Positions 205 to 25,211 of a DNA stretch of 31,235 bases are shown here, piece by piece; position 1 is the stretch's first letter; each line of letters opens with the position of its first letter. The DNA is from a virus: positions 1-31,235 of IMG/VR virus record IMGVR_UViG_3300007345_000154. One strand, written 5' to 3'. The position numbers were made by a program, and so were the translations under genes. The notes below the pieces were generated by a model. It was not told where the DNA came from and did not search any database. It saw only the letters and a program-made list of their open reading frames with translations.

Positions 205-389
205 TTCTCATCCAAGACAACGACGAGGCGCGTGACCTCGCCATTCAAATCGTAGAAACGCTGCTCGATGAATGCCCGCACCTGCTATCGGCGCAAGCCC
301 AAGAGTACAACGGCAACTTCACCGACGGCACGTTTGAACTGCAGGACACTATCCACGACTTTATCAACTCTAAAATTCAGAACGTATGA
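201..389 (+). CDS. hypothetical early protein, 62 aa
   Basis: ATG 201 to TGA 389, overlapping both neighbours by 4 nt (ATGA). It is a small acidic protein, mainly helical by composition (DEARDLAIQIVETLLDECPHL), with no recognisable domain, membrane segment or metal motif. Tight coupling on both sides shows it is translated as part of the early polycistron. Function unknown. Confidence 0.7.
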   Translation: MILIQDNDEARDLAIQIVETLLDECPHLLSAQAQEYNGNFTDGTFELQDTIHDFINSKIQNV

Positions 390-673
390 ACGACAAAAAC
401 ATCACCAAGATTCAGAACCTGCTGACCACCTGCCTCGACTGTGCAGGTGTCGAGCCTGAGCAGACCATCGCGCCCGTCATCAAGAAGAGCCCGGCAGGAA
501 TCAGCTACTACGTTGACCTCTGCATAGAGGACTACAACGAAGAGCAGCTTGCCTACTTCGTTGGCTTCCTGACCGAACAAATCGGATTCAAGAACATTTG
601 GTTTGACACATACCCATCAAGCGGGCGCGTTGACTTCGAATTAATCGTGCCGCTCGAAAGTTTGGCACGGTGA
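386..673 (+). CDS. hypothetical early protein, 95 aa
   Basis: ATG 386 to TGA 673, overlapping the preceding stop by 4 nt. No known domain. The second half (GISYYVDLCIEDYNEEQLAYF then VGFLTEQIG) has the same arrangement as GSLYFDFQVYDLTPELQFQL then GAFLGGAFG in the protein at 880-1209: a Tyr/Asp beta strand, an acidic turn, then a Gly-Phe-Leu helix. The two may be diverged duplicates separated by the tRNA-like pair. That is a by-eye alignment only. Function unknown. Confidence 0.75.
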   Translation: MNDKNITKIQNLLTTCLDCAGVEPEQTIAPVIKKSPAGISYYVDLCIEDYNEEQLAYFVGFLTEQIGFKNIWFDTYPSSGRVDFELIVPLESLAR

Positions 674-712: not shown

Positions 713-763
713 AGCAAGCCGCCCGCCGGGGGCGCAAGAGCGGTTCGACTCCGCTGCTTGCTC
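713..763 (+). ncRNA. tRNA-like element A: acceptor and T arm with one mini-arm
   Basis: A perfect 7-bp acceptor-type stem (713-719 with 756-762) encloses a perfect 5-bp T stem (739-743 with 751-755) whose 7-nt loop is TTCGACT, with the invariant G53-C61 pair and T54 T55 C56 A58 of tRNA. Between them lie only one 5-bp hairpin (CGCCC/GGGCG, 720-734) and a 4-nt linker. There is no D arm, no anticodon arm, and no encoded CCA (763 is C, then AAAA). At 51 nt it is far too short for a canonical tRNA. By geometry it could be an RNase P or RNase Z type substrate, but this is inference. A decayed tRNA is the alternative. Confidence 0.6.
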
Positions 764-768
764 AAAAT

Positions 769-850
769 GGCCTACTGCCGCGTGCCACACTATGTAGACG
801 TACATAGTGGCCGGGAGGATGCACACGAGGTTCGAGTCCTCGGTAGGTCA
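769..850 (+). ncRNA. tRNA-like element B: acceptor and T arm with long central hairpin
   Basis: A 7-bp acceptor stem (769-775 with 843-849, one G-U pair) joins a perfect 5-bp T stem (826-830 with 838-842) with loop TTCGAGT; T776 occupies the position of U8 and A850 that of the discriminator base. In place of D and anticodon arms is one long arm: CCG/CGG (778-780 with 812-814) and a perfect 9-bp hairpin (788-796 with 801-809) closed by a GACG tetraloop. There is no 7-nt anticodon loop and no encoded CCA. It begins 5 nt after element A, so the two are a tandem unit. All tRNA T-arm invariants are kept, which argues for selection. Confidence 0.6.
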
Positions 851-879: not shown

Positions 880-1209
880 ATGGACAACATCTCAACGTGC
901 AAAATCACCCCGCGCCTCGCACAGGCGCAAGCCAAGAACACTTGCCTACAAATCGAGCGACTCATCCAAGCGTGCGGCATCAGCAAGGACGACTACACCG
1001 AAGTAGTGTGGCAAGAGCTCAAGGGCTCGTTGTACTTCGACTTCCAAGTTTACGACCTCACGCCTGAGTTGCAGTTCCAACTCGGCGCTTTCCTCGGCGG
1101 TGCATTCGGCGCTGCTTCAATTAACACAATGGCCTTCTATTGCAGTACCAACAAGTACCGAGGCCTTATCCGCTACGAAATCCAAACCACTATCAAAAAT
1201 GCCAAGTAA
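880..1209 (+). CDS. hypothetical early protein, 109 aa
   Basis: ATG 880 to TAA 1209. The leader (tttaaacccaaacact) has no Shine-Dalgarno sequence. The N-terminal half is helical (LAQAQAKNTCLQIERLIQAC) and the C-terminal half alternates strands around YFDFQVYDL and a Gly/Ala-rich FLGGAFGAA segment. No domain recognised. It is the first gene after the tRNA-like pair and may be a diverged duplicate of the protein at 386-673. Function unknown. Confidence 0.75.
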   Translation: MDNISTCKITPRLAQAQAKNTCLQIERLIQACGISKDDYTEVVWQELKGSLYFDFQVYDLTPELQFQLGAFLGGAFGAASINTMAFYCSTNKYRGLIRYEIQTTIKNAK

Positions 1210-4628: not shown

Positions 4629-4954
4629 TGAATATTCCTAAAAGTGTTTCCATCTCTATTGACCTCAACAAGATTGACGAGCAATACATCATCCAAGGAA
4701 AGAACGGCGCACGGTATGTGGACCTCAAGCTAGTGAACAGCCCCGACAACCAATACGGAAGTGACTACTTCGTTTCTCAGGGACTGCCCAAGAGCGTCCG
4801 AGACGAAATCAAAGCCAATGGCGGCGAATACCCCAAGACACCAATCGTGGGCAACGGTAACGCTTGGCAGATTATGGAAGGCCGGTTGAACTCCAACAAG
4901 AACAATTCTGTTGTCGAGACTAAGCAGGAGGAGTCAAACGACATGCCGTTCTAA
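4628..4954 (+). CDS. single-stranded DNA-binding protein (SSB-like)
   Basis: 108 aa. The body is a compact beta-rich fold (NGARYVDLKLVNSPDNQYGS), followed by a disordered linker and a terminal EESNDMPF, matching the SSB C-terminal tip (acidic residues then Pro-Phe) that recruits replication partners. It would coat single-stranded DNA during replication and recombination. It sits between the annealing-like protein and the helicase with TAATG couplings on both sides. The OB fold itself is not provable by eye, so a non-SSB protein with a similar tail is the alternative. Confidence 0.6.
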   Translation: MNIPKSVSISIDLNKIDEQYIIQGKNGARYVDLKLVNSPDNQYGSDYFVSQGLPKSVRDEIKANGGEYPKTPIVGNGNAWQIMEGRLNSNKNNSVVETKQEESNDMPF

Positions 4955-5280
4955 TGTTGTCGCCAATCGACGTTATGCTCAACTTGCGGCACAAGTTTGA
5001 GGTTATACTCGATGTGGATAGCGGGGATGGGGCTTGCGCCCTGTCCCTGCTTGACAACGCTATCGAGTCAGCAAAAGACACATTACAACATTACGGAGAG
5101 CCGCCGCCCGTAATATTTAACTTAAACGAGGCCATCGAGAAGGTGACGGAAGAGCACTTCTCCAAGCTGAACTTTGACGAGGTGCACGACCTTGCCGTGC
5201 AGATGTTGGAGGACAGGATAGCTCAGCTAACACTACAATTAGAGCATGCAAAAGATAATCGAACAGATTCAGAGGGTTGA
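4954..5280 (+). CDS. hypothetical replication-region protein, 108 aa
   Basis: ATG 4954 (TAATG with the SSB stop) to TGA 5280, overlapping the helicase start by 35 nt. Acidic and helical; the C-terminal half is a probable coiled coil (VHDLAVQMLEDRIAQLTLQL). No recognised domain. Its place between SSB and helicase suggests a replication accessory, but there is no sequence evidence of what it does. Confidence 0.65.
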   Translation: MLSPIDVMLNLRHKFEVILDVDSGDGACALSLLDNAIESAKDTLQHYGEPPPVIFNLNEAIEKVTEEHFSKLNFDEVHDLAVQMLEDRIAQLTLQLEHAKDNRTDSEG

Positions 5281-22593: not shown

Positions 22594-23241
22594 TCAATAC
22601 TGTCTTACAGAGTTGAGCAGGCGGTGAACACCCTCTTTCACCTCGTTGGTAACAGCGCCTAAGGTTTCAGCCTCGCGGTGCATATCGTAGTGACCCACCA
22701 AGAGAAGCAATGCTTGGCGATACTGCCGTGGCAGGTCGTTCACATTGTCGCCTCCGGTGAGCACGACCTTGTAGAGGTCAACGCCGTATTCGTTTGCGTC
22801 GGTTGGTTCTTCAGCTTCGGTGAAGTTAATCTCAACAGGGTAGCCAGTGAGTCGGACCCGAGCCTTCGTGTCAGTAAAATCCACGTAGGTGTCTGAGTCG
22901 TTCATGTACTGAATACTAGTCACAGCCCAAGTCCCTGTAATCCCACGCAAAGCGTGAACCTTTTTGACGTCTCCTCGGTTGAGGTATACAGTCACTGTTG
23001 CGTTCAATGCCTCGGGGGTGATGGTCAGCGAGTAGCTGTTGTCTGGGTCTTCGTGTAGCGCGTCGGGAGTCGACGAGCAGAACACCCTGTTGGTGATTGT
23101 CTCCATATAATCGCAAGCGGCCTCAACGTAAGCACGGATGAGGTCGTCTGCATCTCCGCTCTCATAACGCAGGTGCTCGCGCACGGTAGCGTATGGAACC
23201 ATATCCTCTGCGTAGTAGTTATGTTCTTTTATAATCTTCAT
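22594..23241 (-). CDS. head-tail connector (HK97 gp6-like)
   Basis: 215 aa. N-terminal part (YATVREHLRYESGDADDLIR then AYVEAACDYMETITNRVF) is the signature of gp6/gp15-type connectors, helical proteins that form a ring below the portal. The C-terminal end is a helical tail (RQYRQALLLLVGHYDMHREA). The usual length of this family is about 100-200 aa; here a beta insert occupies about 65-165. It is preceded by the tRNA-like element C and the capsid terminator. Confidence 0.82.
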   Translation of the reverse strand: MKIIKEHNYYAEDMVPYATVREHLRYESGDADDLIRAYVEAACDYMETITNRVFCSSTPDALHEDPDNSYSLTITPEALNATVTVYLNRGDVKKVHALRGITGTWAVTSIQYMNDSDTYVDFTDTKARVRLTGYPVEINFTEAEEPTDANEYGVDLYKVVLTGGDNVNDLPRQYRQALLLLVGHYDMHREAETLGAVTNEVKEGVHRLLNSVRQY

Positions 23242-23257: not shown

Positions 23258-23322
23258 AAGTGGAGTAGGGTTTCGAACCCCGCCGCTGGATACTGCCATA
23301 CGGTGCGTCTACGCCTCCACTT
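23258..23322 (-). ncRNA. tRNA-like element C in the capsid-connector gap
   Basis: On the minus strand a perfect acceptor-type stem (23322-23315 with 23265-23258, 8 bp) stacks on a T stem (23282-23278 with 23270-23266; three G-C, one G-U, one end mismatch) with loop TTCGAAA, keeping G53-C61, T54, T55, C56 and A58. The middle carries only one arm (CCG...CGG, 23303-23301 with 23285-23283, with inner TGG/CCA) and a mini GCG/CGC hairpin. No D/anticodon arm set, no encoded CCA. At 65 nt it is shorter than a tRNA. Same design as elements A and B on the other strand. Confidence 0.55.
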
Positions 23323-23328
23323 GGGGGG

Positions 23329-23360
23329 AAAATAGGGGAGCCCAATTGCTCCCCCTATTT
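23329..23360 (-). terminator. intrinsic terminator after the capsid gene
   Basis: Minus-strand AAATAGGGG[G]AGC pairs with GCTCCCCTATTT (one bulge) over 12 pairs with a 6-nt loop, followed by TTTT then CCCCCC. It lies 22 nt after the capsid stop and just before tRNA-like element C. The T run is short, so termination is probably partial, leaving lower expression of the connector genes. Confidence 0.65.
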
Positions 23361-23381
23361 CCTATATATAGTTATCAGCTA

Positions 23382-25211
23382 TTAGGATGTCTCACCCAAG
23401 TTAGCCAAAGTGTGGAACCCACCAGACTGCAGCGTCTTAACGTCGCGGTACTCGTTTGCCACCATTCGAACAACTCCGTCAGCCGCCAAAGTGTAAGGGT
23501 CAACGATGAGGTTTAATCCACCCCACGTGCCAGTCACCATCTGGTTCTTGTCAAAGAAGTTGATGTCGTTAGCAGTAGCTTGGCTAGAGATAACGCCGGG
23601 CATTCCGAGCAAGCTGATTCGAGACTTAGGGTCTGTAGCGTGCAGCAATCCAGAACCAACGTCGAGAGACTCGGTTCGAGCTACGCGGTATCCCGAAGGA
23701 GACGCGACGAACACAACGTCATTCAAGTCGATGTCGCCAGCCAAGATAGCCTGCTCGATGTCCAACACGTTGTTGGCGTCGTCAGTAGCGTCGAGGGGAG
23801 TGTCGACAGCCTCGATTGCAGTGATGATTGCGGCGTTGAACTGCTTGTCCAAAGCGCGACGGATGTCCATCTGGATGAAAGCAGCCATGTCGTCTCCAGA
23901 CTGAGCGAGCATCTGCTGAGTAACACCTACGTTAGCAGCGTAACGAGTTGGTGACAAAGTCACAGAGCCGAAAGCTGGCAAAGCCTCTGCCTTGGTCAAG
24001 CCTTCAGCTACTGCTTCGGCAGCGGTCAAAGTGCTCTGAACCTGCATCAAAACGTCTCCGTTGAGGTTCGTGAGGTTTCGAACGCCCAACTTGCTAGCGA
24101 GGTCGGCTGGAGCGTAGTTCTCCATGATTCCGTCGTCGCGCTTGCCAATTGCTCCACCGAAGCCGGTAGCACCGTCTGCCGCACCTGATGAGCTTTCCGT
24201 AGACGCTGTACCCAATGAGCGCAAAACCATGGTTGGGATGTTGTACCCACCTGAGACATTGAGTCCCGCGTTGCGCATTTCGTTAGTACCCTCTTGGGTC
24301 ATCTCAGCTTCGAGGCCGGTAACCTGACCCTTGGCTGCTTCTTTGAGGAACTTACCGAAAGAGAAATTCTTCGCGGCACGAGCTTCAGCGTCGCCCAGTC
24401 CCTGTACTACCGCTGGGGCAGCATTCTTGTTGTCTTCCATATTAGATTTAGATTTGTTTTGAGCTGAACGCTCTTCGTTTTTATTGTCTTCTTCTTCCGC
24501 CTCTTTTTTCTCAGCTGGCGGTTCCTCTGTTTCTTCTTCCATTTTTTCTTCGACCTCTTCTTCCTCCTCTTCTTTCATATTTTCCTCTTCCTCCTCTTCT
24601 TCTTCGTAGTGGCCGGGTCGCTCTTCAGGCTTTTCCTCTTCCTCATCTTCCATCTTCATTTCCTCCTCTTCTTCCTCAAGTTTTCGGAGCTCTTCTTCAA
24701 CCTCTCGGTCAAGCGCCGCCTCCATGGAACGCAAACCAACCTCTGTAGTTGGGTAAGCGCCTTGTGTGGTCGGGGAGACGTCGAACAATGTTTCGACCTC
24801 CATGATTGTTCGCAAGTGAACCCCGTTGTCTCGGCGCTCCCACGAGTCGTCAGCCACGGTAAAGCCAAATGAGCTTGTGGAGACATTTCCGCTTCGGATG
24901 TTCTCCGCCAAGTCCTTGGCATACGATTGGTCGCCCAACTCAAAGCGATACTTTAGGCCGACCTCGTCAACCTCTAGCTTGAGCCCCTTGCCTGCGCGGG
25001 ACAGCGGCTGGTTCCAGTCGTGATTGAAGAGAGCCACGGTGTTGCTCATGTCTGCCTTGTCAAAGGCACCACGAGCGACACGCTCAGCGAACTTACCTCC
25101 AATCACTGTTTCATCTTCAAATCGAGCCGCGTAACCTTCTACGACGGTCTTTCCGCCTTTGTCACGAACCTCAAAATCTGAAGATAGAAACCTTTTTTCT
25201 TGGTTATCCAT
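23382..25211 (-). CDS. prohead protease, acidic linker and major capsid protein fusion
   Basis: 609 aa. Residues 1-165 are an HK97-family (S78) prohead protease: H64 in LFNHDWNQPLSRAG, Ser in VSTSSFGFTV (111-114) and D144 in LFDVSPTTQGAYP. Residues about 170-247 are an extreme low-complexity acidic run (45 Glu in 78). From about 258 begins an HK97-fold major capsid protein (NFSFGKFLKEA, LNVSGGYNIPTMVLRSLG, VTQQMLAQSG, ending GGFHTLANLGETS). The protease would cleave the linker, which can act as scaffold. ATG 24440 (M258), after an A/T-rich stretch, could also yield free capsid protein. Confidence 0.9.
   Translation of the reverse strand: MDNQEKRFLSSDFEVRDKGGKTVVEGYAARFEDETVIGGKFAERVARGAFDKADMSNTVALFNHDWNQPLSRAGKGLKLEVDEVGLKYRFELGDQSYAKDLAENIRSGNVSTSSFGFTVADDSWERRDNGVHLRTIMEVETLFDVSPTTQGAYPTTEVGLRSMEAALDREVEEELRKLEEEEEEMKMEDEEEEKPEERPGHYEEEEEEEENMKEEEEEEVEEKMEEETEEPPAEKKEAEEEDNKNEERSAQNKSKSNMEDNKNAAPAVVQGLGDAEARAAKNFSFGKFLKEAAKGQVTGLEAEMTQEGTNEMRNAGLNVSGGYNIPTMVLRSLGTASTESSSGAADGATGFGGAIGKRDDGIMENYAPADLASKLGVRNLTNLNGDVLMQVQSTLTAAEAVAEGLTKAEALPAFGSVTLSPTRYAANVGVTQQMLAQSGDDMAAFIQMDIRRALDKQFNAAIITAIEAVDTPLDATDDANNVLDIEQAILAGDIDLNDVVFVASPSGYRVARTESLDVGSGLLHATDPKSRISLLGMPGVISSQATANDINFFDKNQMVTGTWGGLNLIVDPYTLAADGVVRMVANEYRDVKTLQSGGFHTLANLGETS

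Follow-up and report, generated by a model that had tools for sequence, protein, structure and literature searches.

A marine phage genome, the 31,235-base IMG/VR record IMGVR_UViG_3300007345_000154 (analyzed over its whole length and called here the window), carries three tRNA-like elements, E1, E2, and E3. We found that these elements are conserved structures, as their shape is kept in relatives while their letters have changed, that in the cases examined they lie on the sense strand at gene borders, and that they exchange there with terminators. We consider it about an even chance (probability roughly 0.5) that they serve at these borders as processing signals for RNase P and perhaps RNase Z, a reading in which cleavage is predicted from sequence. 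The window encodes a terminase, a portal protein, a fused protease-capsid protein, a primase/helicase, an exonuclease, and a ribonucleotide reductase, and no integrase was found in the subset of its open reading frames (ORFs) that was searched. Positions 600 to 900 gave no match by DNA similarity to phage records, and alignment of the portal protein to GTDB genomes identified neither a host nor a prophage. The phages carrying this family of elements probably infect Bacteroidota. The Bacteroidota promoter motif TTTG-N18-22-TAnnTTTG was clearly enriched only in one relative, L134 (4 versus 0.2), with none in the window, and this host assignment is only suggestive.

E1 and E2 share a single gap of about 200 nt between two small early genes and have the same orientation as both. 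The upstream ORF (386 to 673, plus strand) encodes 95 amino acids and the downstream one (880 to 1209, plus strand), whose ATG lies 30 nt past E2, encodes 109; neither was assigned to a family. E1 (713 to 762, plus strand) consists of an acceptor stem (713-719/756-762), a central 5-bp hairpin (720-734), and a T arm (739-755), and reads AGCAAGC / CGCCC-GCCGG-GGGCG-CAAG / AGCGG TTCGACT CCGCT / GCTTGCT, with an insert of 19 nt between the acceptor strand and the T arm. E2 (769 to 849, plus strand) has its acceptor stem at 769-775/843-849 and its T arm at 826-842, and reads GGCCTAC / 50-nt insert / CGAGG TTCGAGT CCTCG / GTAGGTC. The tandem arrangement of 7-bp acceptor-type and 5-bp T stems that had been described from the sequence is thus borne out, as all 12 pairs form in both elements (Watson-Crick throughout in E1, one of them G-U in E2) and both T loops are seven nucleotides long and start with TTCGA. 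The spacing of 5 nt given in the preliminary description is correct if the optional U768-A850 pair, which can lengthen the E2 acceptor stem to 8 bp, is included, and is 6 nt otherwise. Similarly, the central arms had been described as a 5-bp hairpin in E1 and a 9-bp hairpin with a GACG loop in E2. Both hairpins are present, but the E2 arm is longer: its 9-bp hairpin (788-796/801-809, loop at 797-800) rests on a lower stem (780-786/817-822) with a further 4 bp, GCGT/ATGC, plus two C-G pairs, which covaries in relatives. The folding energies depart only modestly from expectation (z = -1.5 for E1 and -2.6 for E2), and the comparative evidence for the two structures is stronger.

The third element that had been announced for the window is E3 (23321 to 23259, minus strand), located between the gene of the fused head protease-major capsid protein (MCP; 23382 to 25211, minus strand) and that of the head-tail connector (PF05135, phrog_40; 22594 to 23241, minus strand), whose start lies 17 nt past the element. 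It combines a 7-bp acceptor stem and a 32-nt insert with a T stem in which the first pair is mismatched (four of five pairs formed, 11 of 12 overall). A GC-rich hairpin with an interrupted U-tract (approximately 23322 to 23370, minus strand) stands directly upstream, and no intrinsic terminator, defined as a GC hairpin followed by a U-tract, was found at this site. The 3′ ends read CAA in E1, A-CTA in E2, and T-CTA in E3, while counting the outer A-U pair as position -1/73 gives T-CCA in the relatives L002 and L003.

As had been proposed, the elements are not canonical tRNAs. ARAGORN and Rfam made no tRNA call on E1 to E3, and the same tools detected true tRNAs nearby in relatives. Of the features of the tRNA family RF00005, E1 and E2 have the 7-bp acceptor and the 5-bp T stem with its TTCRA loop, but an anticodon arm with a 7-nt loop is absent from both, the 19-nt insert of E1 holding a single 5-bp hairpin and the E2 hairpin ending in a 4-nt loop. 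What is kept is the part that characterizes RNase P substrates, in which the acceptor and T stems stack over about 12 bp and end in a T loop. The only tRNA-like Rfam match in the region was that of E2 to the mascRNA-menRNA family (RF01684), which reached 18.4 bits against a gathering threshold of 42.5 and in a different register.

Shuffle controls, which had been named as a way to refute the elements, turned out in their favor. A strict scan gave 0.03 matches per dinucleotide-shuffled 31-kb window on both strands; since it was limited to inserts of at least 20 nt, it returned only E2, and E1 with its 19-nt insert came from a wider scan. We then took a census of 1.23 Mb of nonredundant DNA from relatives, collected mainly by protein similarity and in a few cases by pattern search. 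It contained 17 perfect elements, including three true tRNAs and thus 14 that are not tRNAs, as compared to a single one in ten shuffled sets (0, 0, 0, 0, 0, 0, 0, 1, 0, and 0). A looser test yielded 39 matches; the shuffles gave 0 to 8, on average 4.7, and chance therefore accounts for part of the weaker matches. Because the sample is biased toward relatives, the elements are not independent inventions; their sequences nevertheless differ widely. Constant among them are the acceptor/T stack and the TTCGA loop, while the insert ranges from 11 to about 70 nt and the acceptor sequences show no common identity set, as would be expected if the shape alone is read. A GG able to meet the T loop is found in all 16 representative inserts, which is a weak signal (p = 0.035; p = 0.002 for an ACGG motif). 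One insert, that of the element at 1239-1341 in L169, contains three direct repeats of about TGTGACCTACATCACACC.

Covariation in relatives likewise spoke for the proposed folds. The E2 elements of the window, L003, and L133 share the 50-nt insert length, the acceptor, the lower central stem, the 9-bp hairpin, and the T arm, and the GACG loop is invariant. In their alignment, 98.8% of the cells are paired over 28 pairs, and 12 of these pairs are altered on both sides among the three sequences. None of 500 shuffles reached the observed pairing, and sliding the partners reduced it to 33 to 41%. L003 had been obtained by protein similarity and its E2 by the scan, and L133 by searching for a pattern that covers the T arm and 3′ acceptor strand. 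Their selection ignored the central arm, which carries 9 of the 12 double-sided changes. A pattern scan of viral records detected no E2 copies beyond those already known.

At the E3 site, nine acceptor/T-arm variants showed 92.6% of cells paired and double-sided changes at 10 of the 12 pairs, with none of 500 shuffles matching either the paired cells or the covariation score. At this site the T stem usually begins with a mismatched pair. The loci were gathered by protein similarity and not by structure, and the nine variants were drawn from those in which the scan detected an element. Three loci with the same site upstream of the connector gene (L023, L089, and L124) can be matched only if the T loop is shifted (ATTCGATG or AATCGATG), and they have a conserved extra hairpin.

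The placement of the elements follows the genes. In L002, L003, L134, L152, and L154 the gap after the stop codon is 5 to 10 nt; in other cases the element comes after a hairpin. The next start codon often lies 13 to 30 nt 3′ of the element. This distance leaves no room for a separate promoter, and transcription of the downstream gene would therefore usually have to run through the element. The elements of L152 and L154 have no close start codon downstream, and some relatives lack elements altogether. In L149 an element precedes a homolog of the 880-1209 ORF, which in the window lies next after E2. In L003, an E1-like element (915-956) whose acceptor sequence is different stands immediately ahead of the E2 of that phage, and because this pair sits in another gap, two small genes away, the E1-E2 pair appears to be a movable unit. 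Three gaps of L002 each hold a 42-nt element (2096-2137, 2558-2599, and 4712-4753) that begins 6 to 8 nt past a stop codon; the three copies are nearly identical, suggesting a recent spread by copying.

The exchange with terminators was seen at the border between the MCP and connector genes. At 17 loci, a hairpin with a broken T-tract is followed by the element and then by the connector gene; in L055, the element is present and the terminator absent; the remaining relatives lack the element and have a hairpin followed by a T-tract. The T-tract is interrupted in the element-bearing clade (one to five T of eight), whereas it is intact in most relatives without the element.

Elements of this kind also occur in cultured phages. 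Maribacter phage Panino (PP540027.1) contains an unannotated perfect element with the same layout at 4941-5031, 9 nt past one gene and 22 nt ahead of the next. Blastn identified a homolog of it in the crAss-like Cellulophaga phage phi14:2 (1760-1849), downstream of a terminator-like hairpin, and between the two acceptor stems three pairs are changed on both sides and one is mismatched. In a related phage from spring water (MW202828.1), positions 523-696 hold a 107-nt tRNA-like gene and, 7 nt on, an element of 60 nt that has an acceptor arm, a D-like arm, and a T arm but no anticodon arm. No perfect element of such kind was found in phi39:1 or in the first 50 kb of phi46:3.

Because the same shape recurs with differing letters at the gene borders of relatives, the elements probably mark cut sites in phage mRNA. 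Of the three functions suggested initially, an mRNA processing signal fits best, given the gene borders, the exchange with terminators, and the short distance to the start codon, while a stability cap and a decoy fit less well. As processing signals, the elements would be transcribed within mRNA leaders or between genes and would imitate the part of a tRNA that RNase P (and RNase Z) measures, namely, the coaxial stack of acceptor and T arms, about 12 bp long, with its T loop. Host RNase P would cut on the 5′ side, and the message released upstream would have a fixed 3′ end; on the 3′ side, cleavage by RNase Z, or trimming, could leave a short unstructured leader for the downstream gene, with an effect on expression. 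At the capsid/connector border, the element would take over the role that a partial terminator has in relatives: the abundant capsid message, with a strong hairpin at its end, would be kept apart from the less needed connector message. An encoded 3′ CCA, which aids RNase P without being indispensable, is absent from most elements, so a lower efficiency of the enzyme would be expected. The cutting of tRNA-like and minimal substrates by RNase P, also in phages, has long been known. The enzyme reads the acceptor/T stack and the T loop (PMC11143913, PMC4919913), and the Escherichia coli RNase P RNA cleaves bare acceptor/T-stem/T-loop hairpins (PMC11143913).

Several known systems resemble the phage elements in part. 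mascRNA and menRNA, which mark the RNase P-made 3′ ends of MALAT1 and MEN-beta, are likewise tRNA-like, with an acceptor, a T arm, and a reduced center, and sit next to the 3′-end structure of a long transcript, but they are mammalian and, as noted, E2 scores far below their threshold. In mitochondria, tRNA structures between genes guide the cutting of polycistronic RNA; these are real tRNAs in organelles, whereas the phage elements are only tRNA-like. The tRNA-like domain of tmRNA and the 3′ tRNA-like structures of plant viruses mimic the acceptor/T half as well, but lie at RNA ends and are aminoacylated, while the phage elements are internal, located at gene borders, and show no amino acid identity. 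Minimal RNase P substrates such as AT1 (PMC11143913) share the geometry cut down to the acceptor/T stack and are synthetic, in contrast to the natural phage elements with their inserted variable arm. Among phage transcripts, host RNase P cleaves T4 dimeric pre-tRNAs, M3 RNA, the C4 antisense RNA of P1/P7, and T4 gene 32 mRNA (PMC11143913). The T4 Pro-Ser dimer (PMC11143913) has a 3-nt spacer, no CCA, and a 3′ UAA, and in this it resembles the E1-E2 tandem with its CTAA trailer; the T4 dimers are true tRNAs, and the likeness is one of layout.

The fold might instead remain on the mRNA, at a 5′ end created by RNase P or at a 3′ end, and block exonucleases with no role as a separator. This would suit L171, in which a promoter-like stretch precedes the element and 15 nt separate it from the start codon, which puts it in the 5′ leader, so that not all elements can separate two genes; it would also suit the MCP site, where a strong hairpin adjoins the element. 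We regard it as unlikely, since a plain hairpin would suffice for protection, and there would be no explanation for the retention of a precise tRNA T loop and of 12 bp of acceptor/T geometry. It is likewise improbable that the elements are released as small RNAs that soak up RNase P, the CCA enzyme, EF-Tu, or toxins attacking the acceptor end of tRNAs. The tandem and repeated copies (E1-E2 and the L002 triplet) would fit such a decoy, and the long conserved central arm of E2 with its invariant loop points to some role in addition to recognition by RNase P. Nevertheless, the elements are tied to gene borders and not to genes with their own promoter, their central arms differ completely between relatives, and no defense system was linked to them. 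Lacking an anticodon arm, the elements are unlikely bait for anticodon nucleases.

It is quite unlikely that the elements are divergent or decaying tRNA genes overlooked by annotation programs. Genuine tRNA-Arg and tRNA-Met genes are present in related genomes, and one 101-nt element (L177, 7105-7205) scores barely above the threshold of the Rfam tRNA model (31.0 versus 29 bits), but inserts of 11 to 19 nt are too small for an anticodon arm and a D arm, and in E2 the 9-bp hairpin with its 4-nt loop is maintained by covariation and not decaying. The L177 element adjoins a true tRNA-Met and may link tRNAs and mimics. Last, chance folds, contradicted by the shuffle controls of the strict scan and the census and by the covariation, and a short coding gene are both highly improbable: a frame from the ATG at 767 is open across E2 in the window, L003, and L133, but it ends at varying places and in L133 overlaps the next gene in another frame, and we dropped this coding reading because the E2 substitutions follow the base pairs.

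Our search of open-access papers found no family of conserved, divergent anticodon-less elements at phage gene borders that exchange with terminators. We also know of no earlier case in which such an element replaces a terminator between capsid and connector genes. Such elements escape standard tRNA and Rfam scans; as Panino and phi14:2 are cultured, the RNase P reading can be tested now. Tentatively, and with less confidence than we place in that reading, we propose that dispersed anticodon-less tRNA mimics may be general cutting marks at the gene borders of Bacteroidota phages, interchangeable with terminators, through which the tRNA-maturation enzymes of the host would set the relative amounts of phage messages. 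If cleavage is shown, the elements would represent a natural and conserved use of a minimal RNase P substrate as punctuation in phage mRNA.
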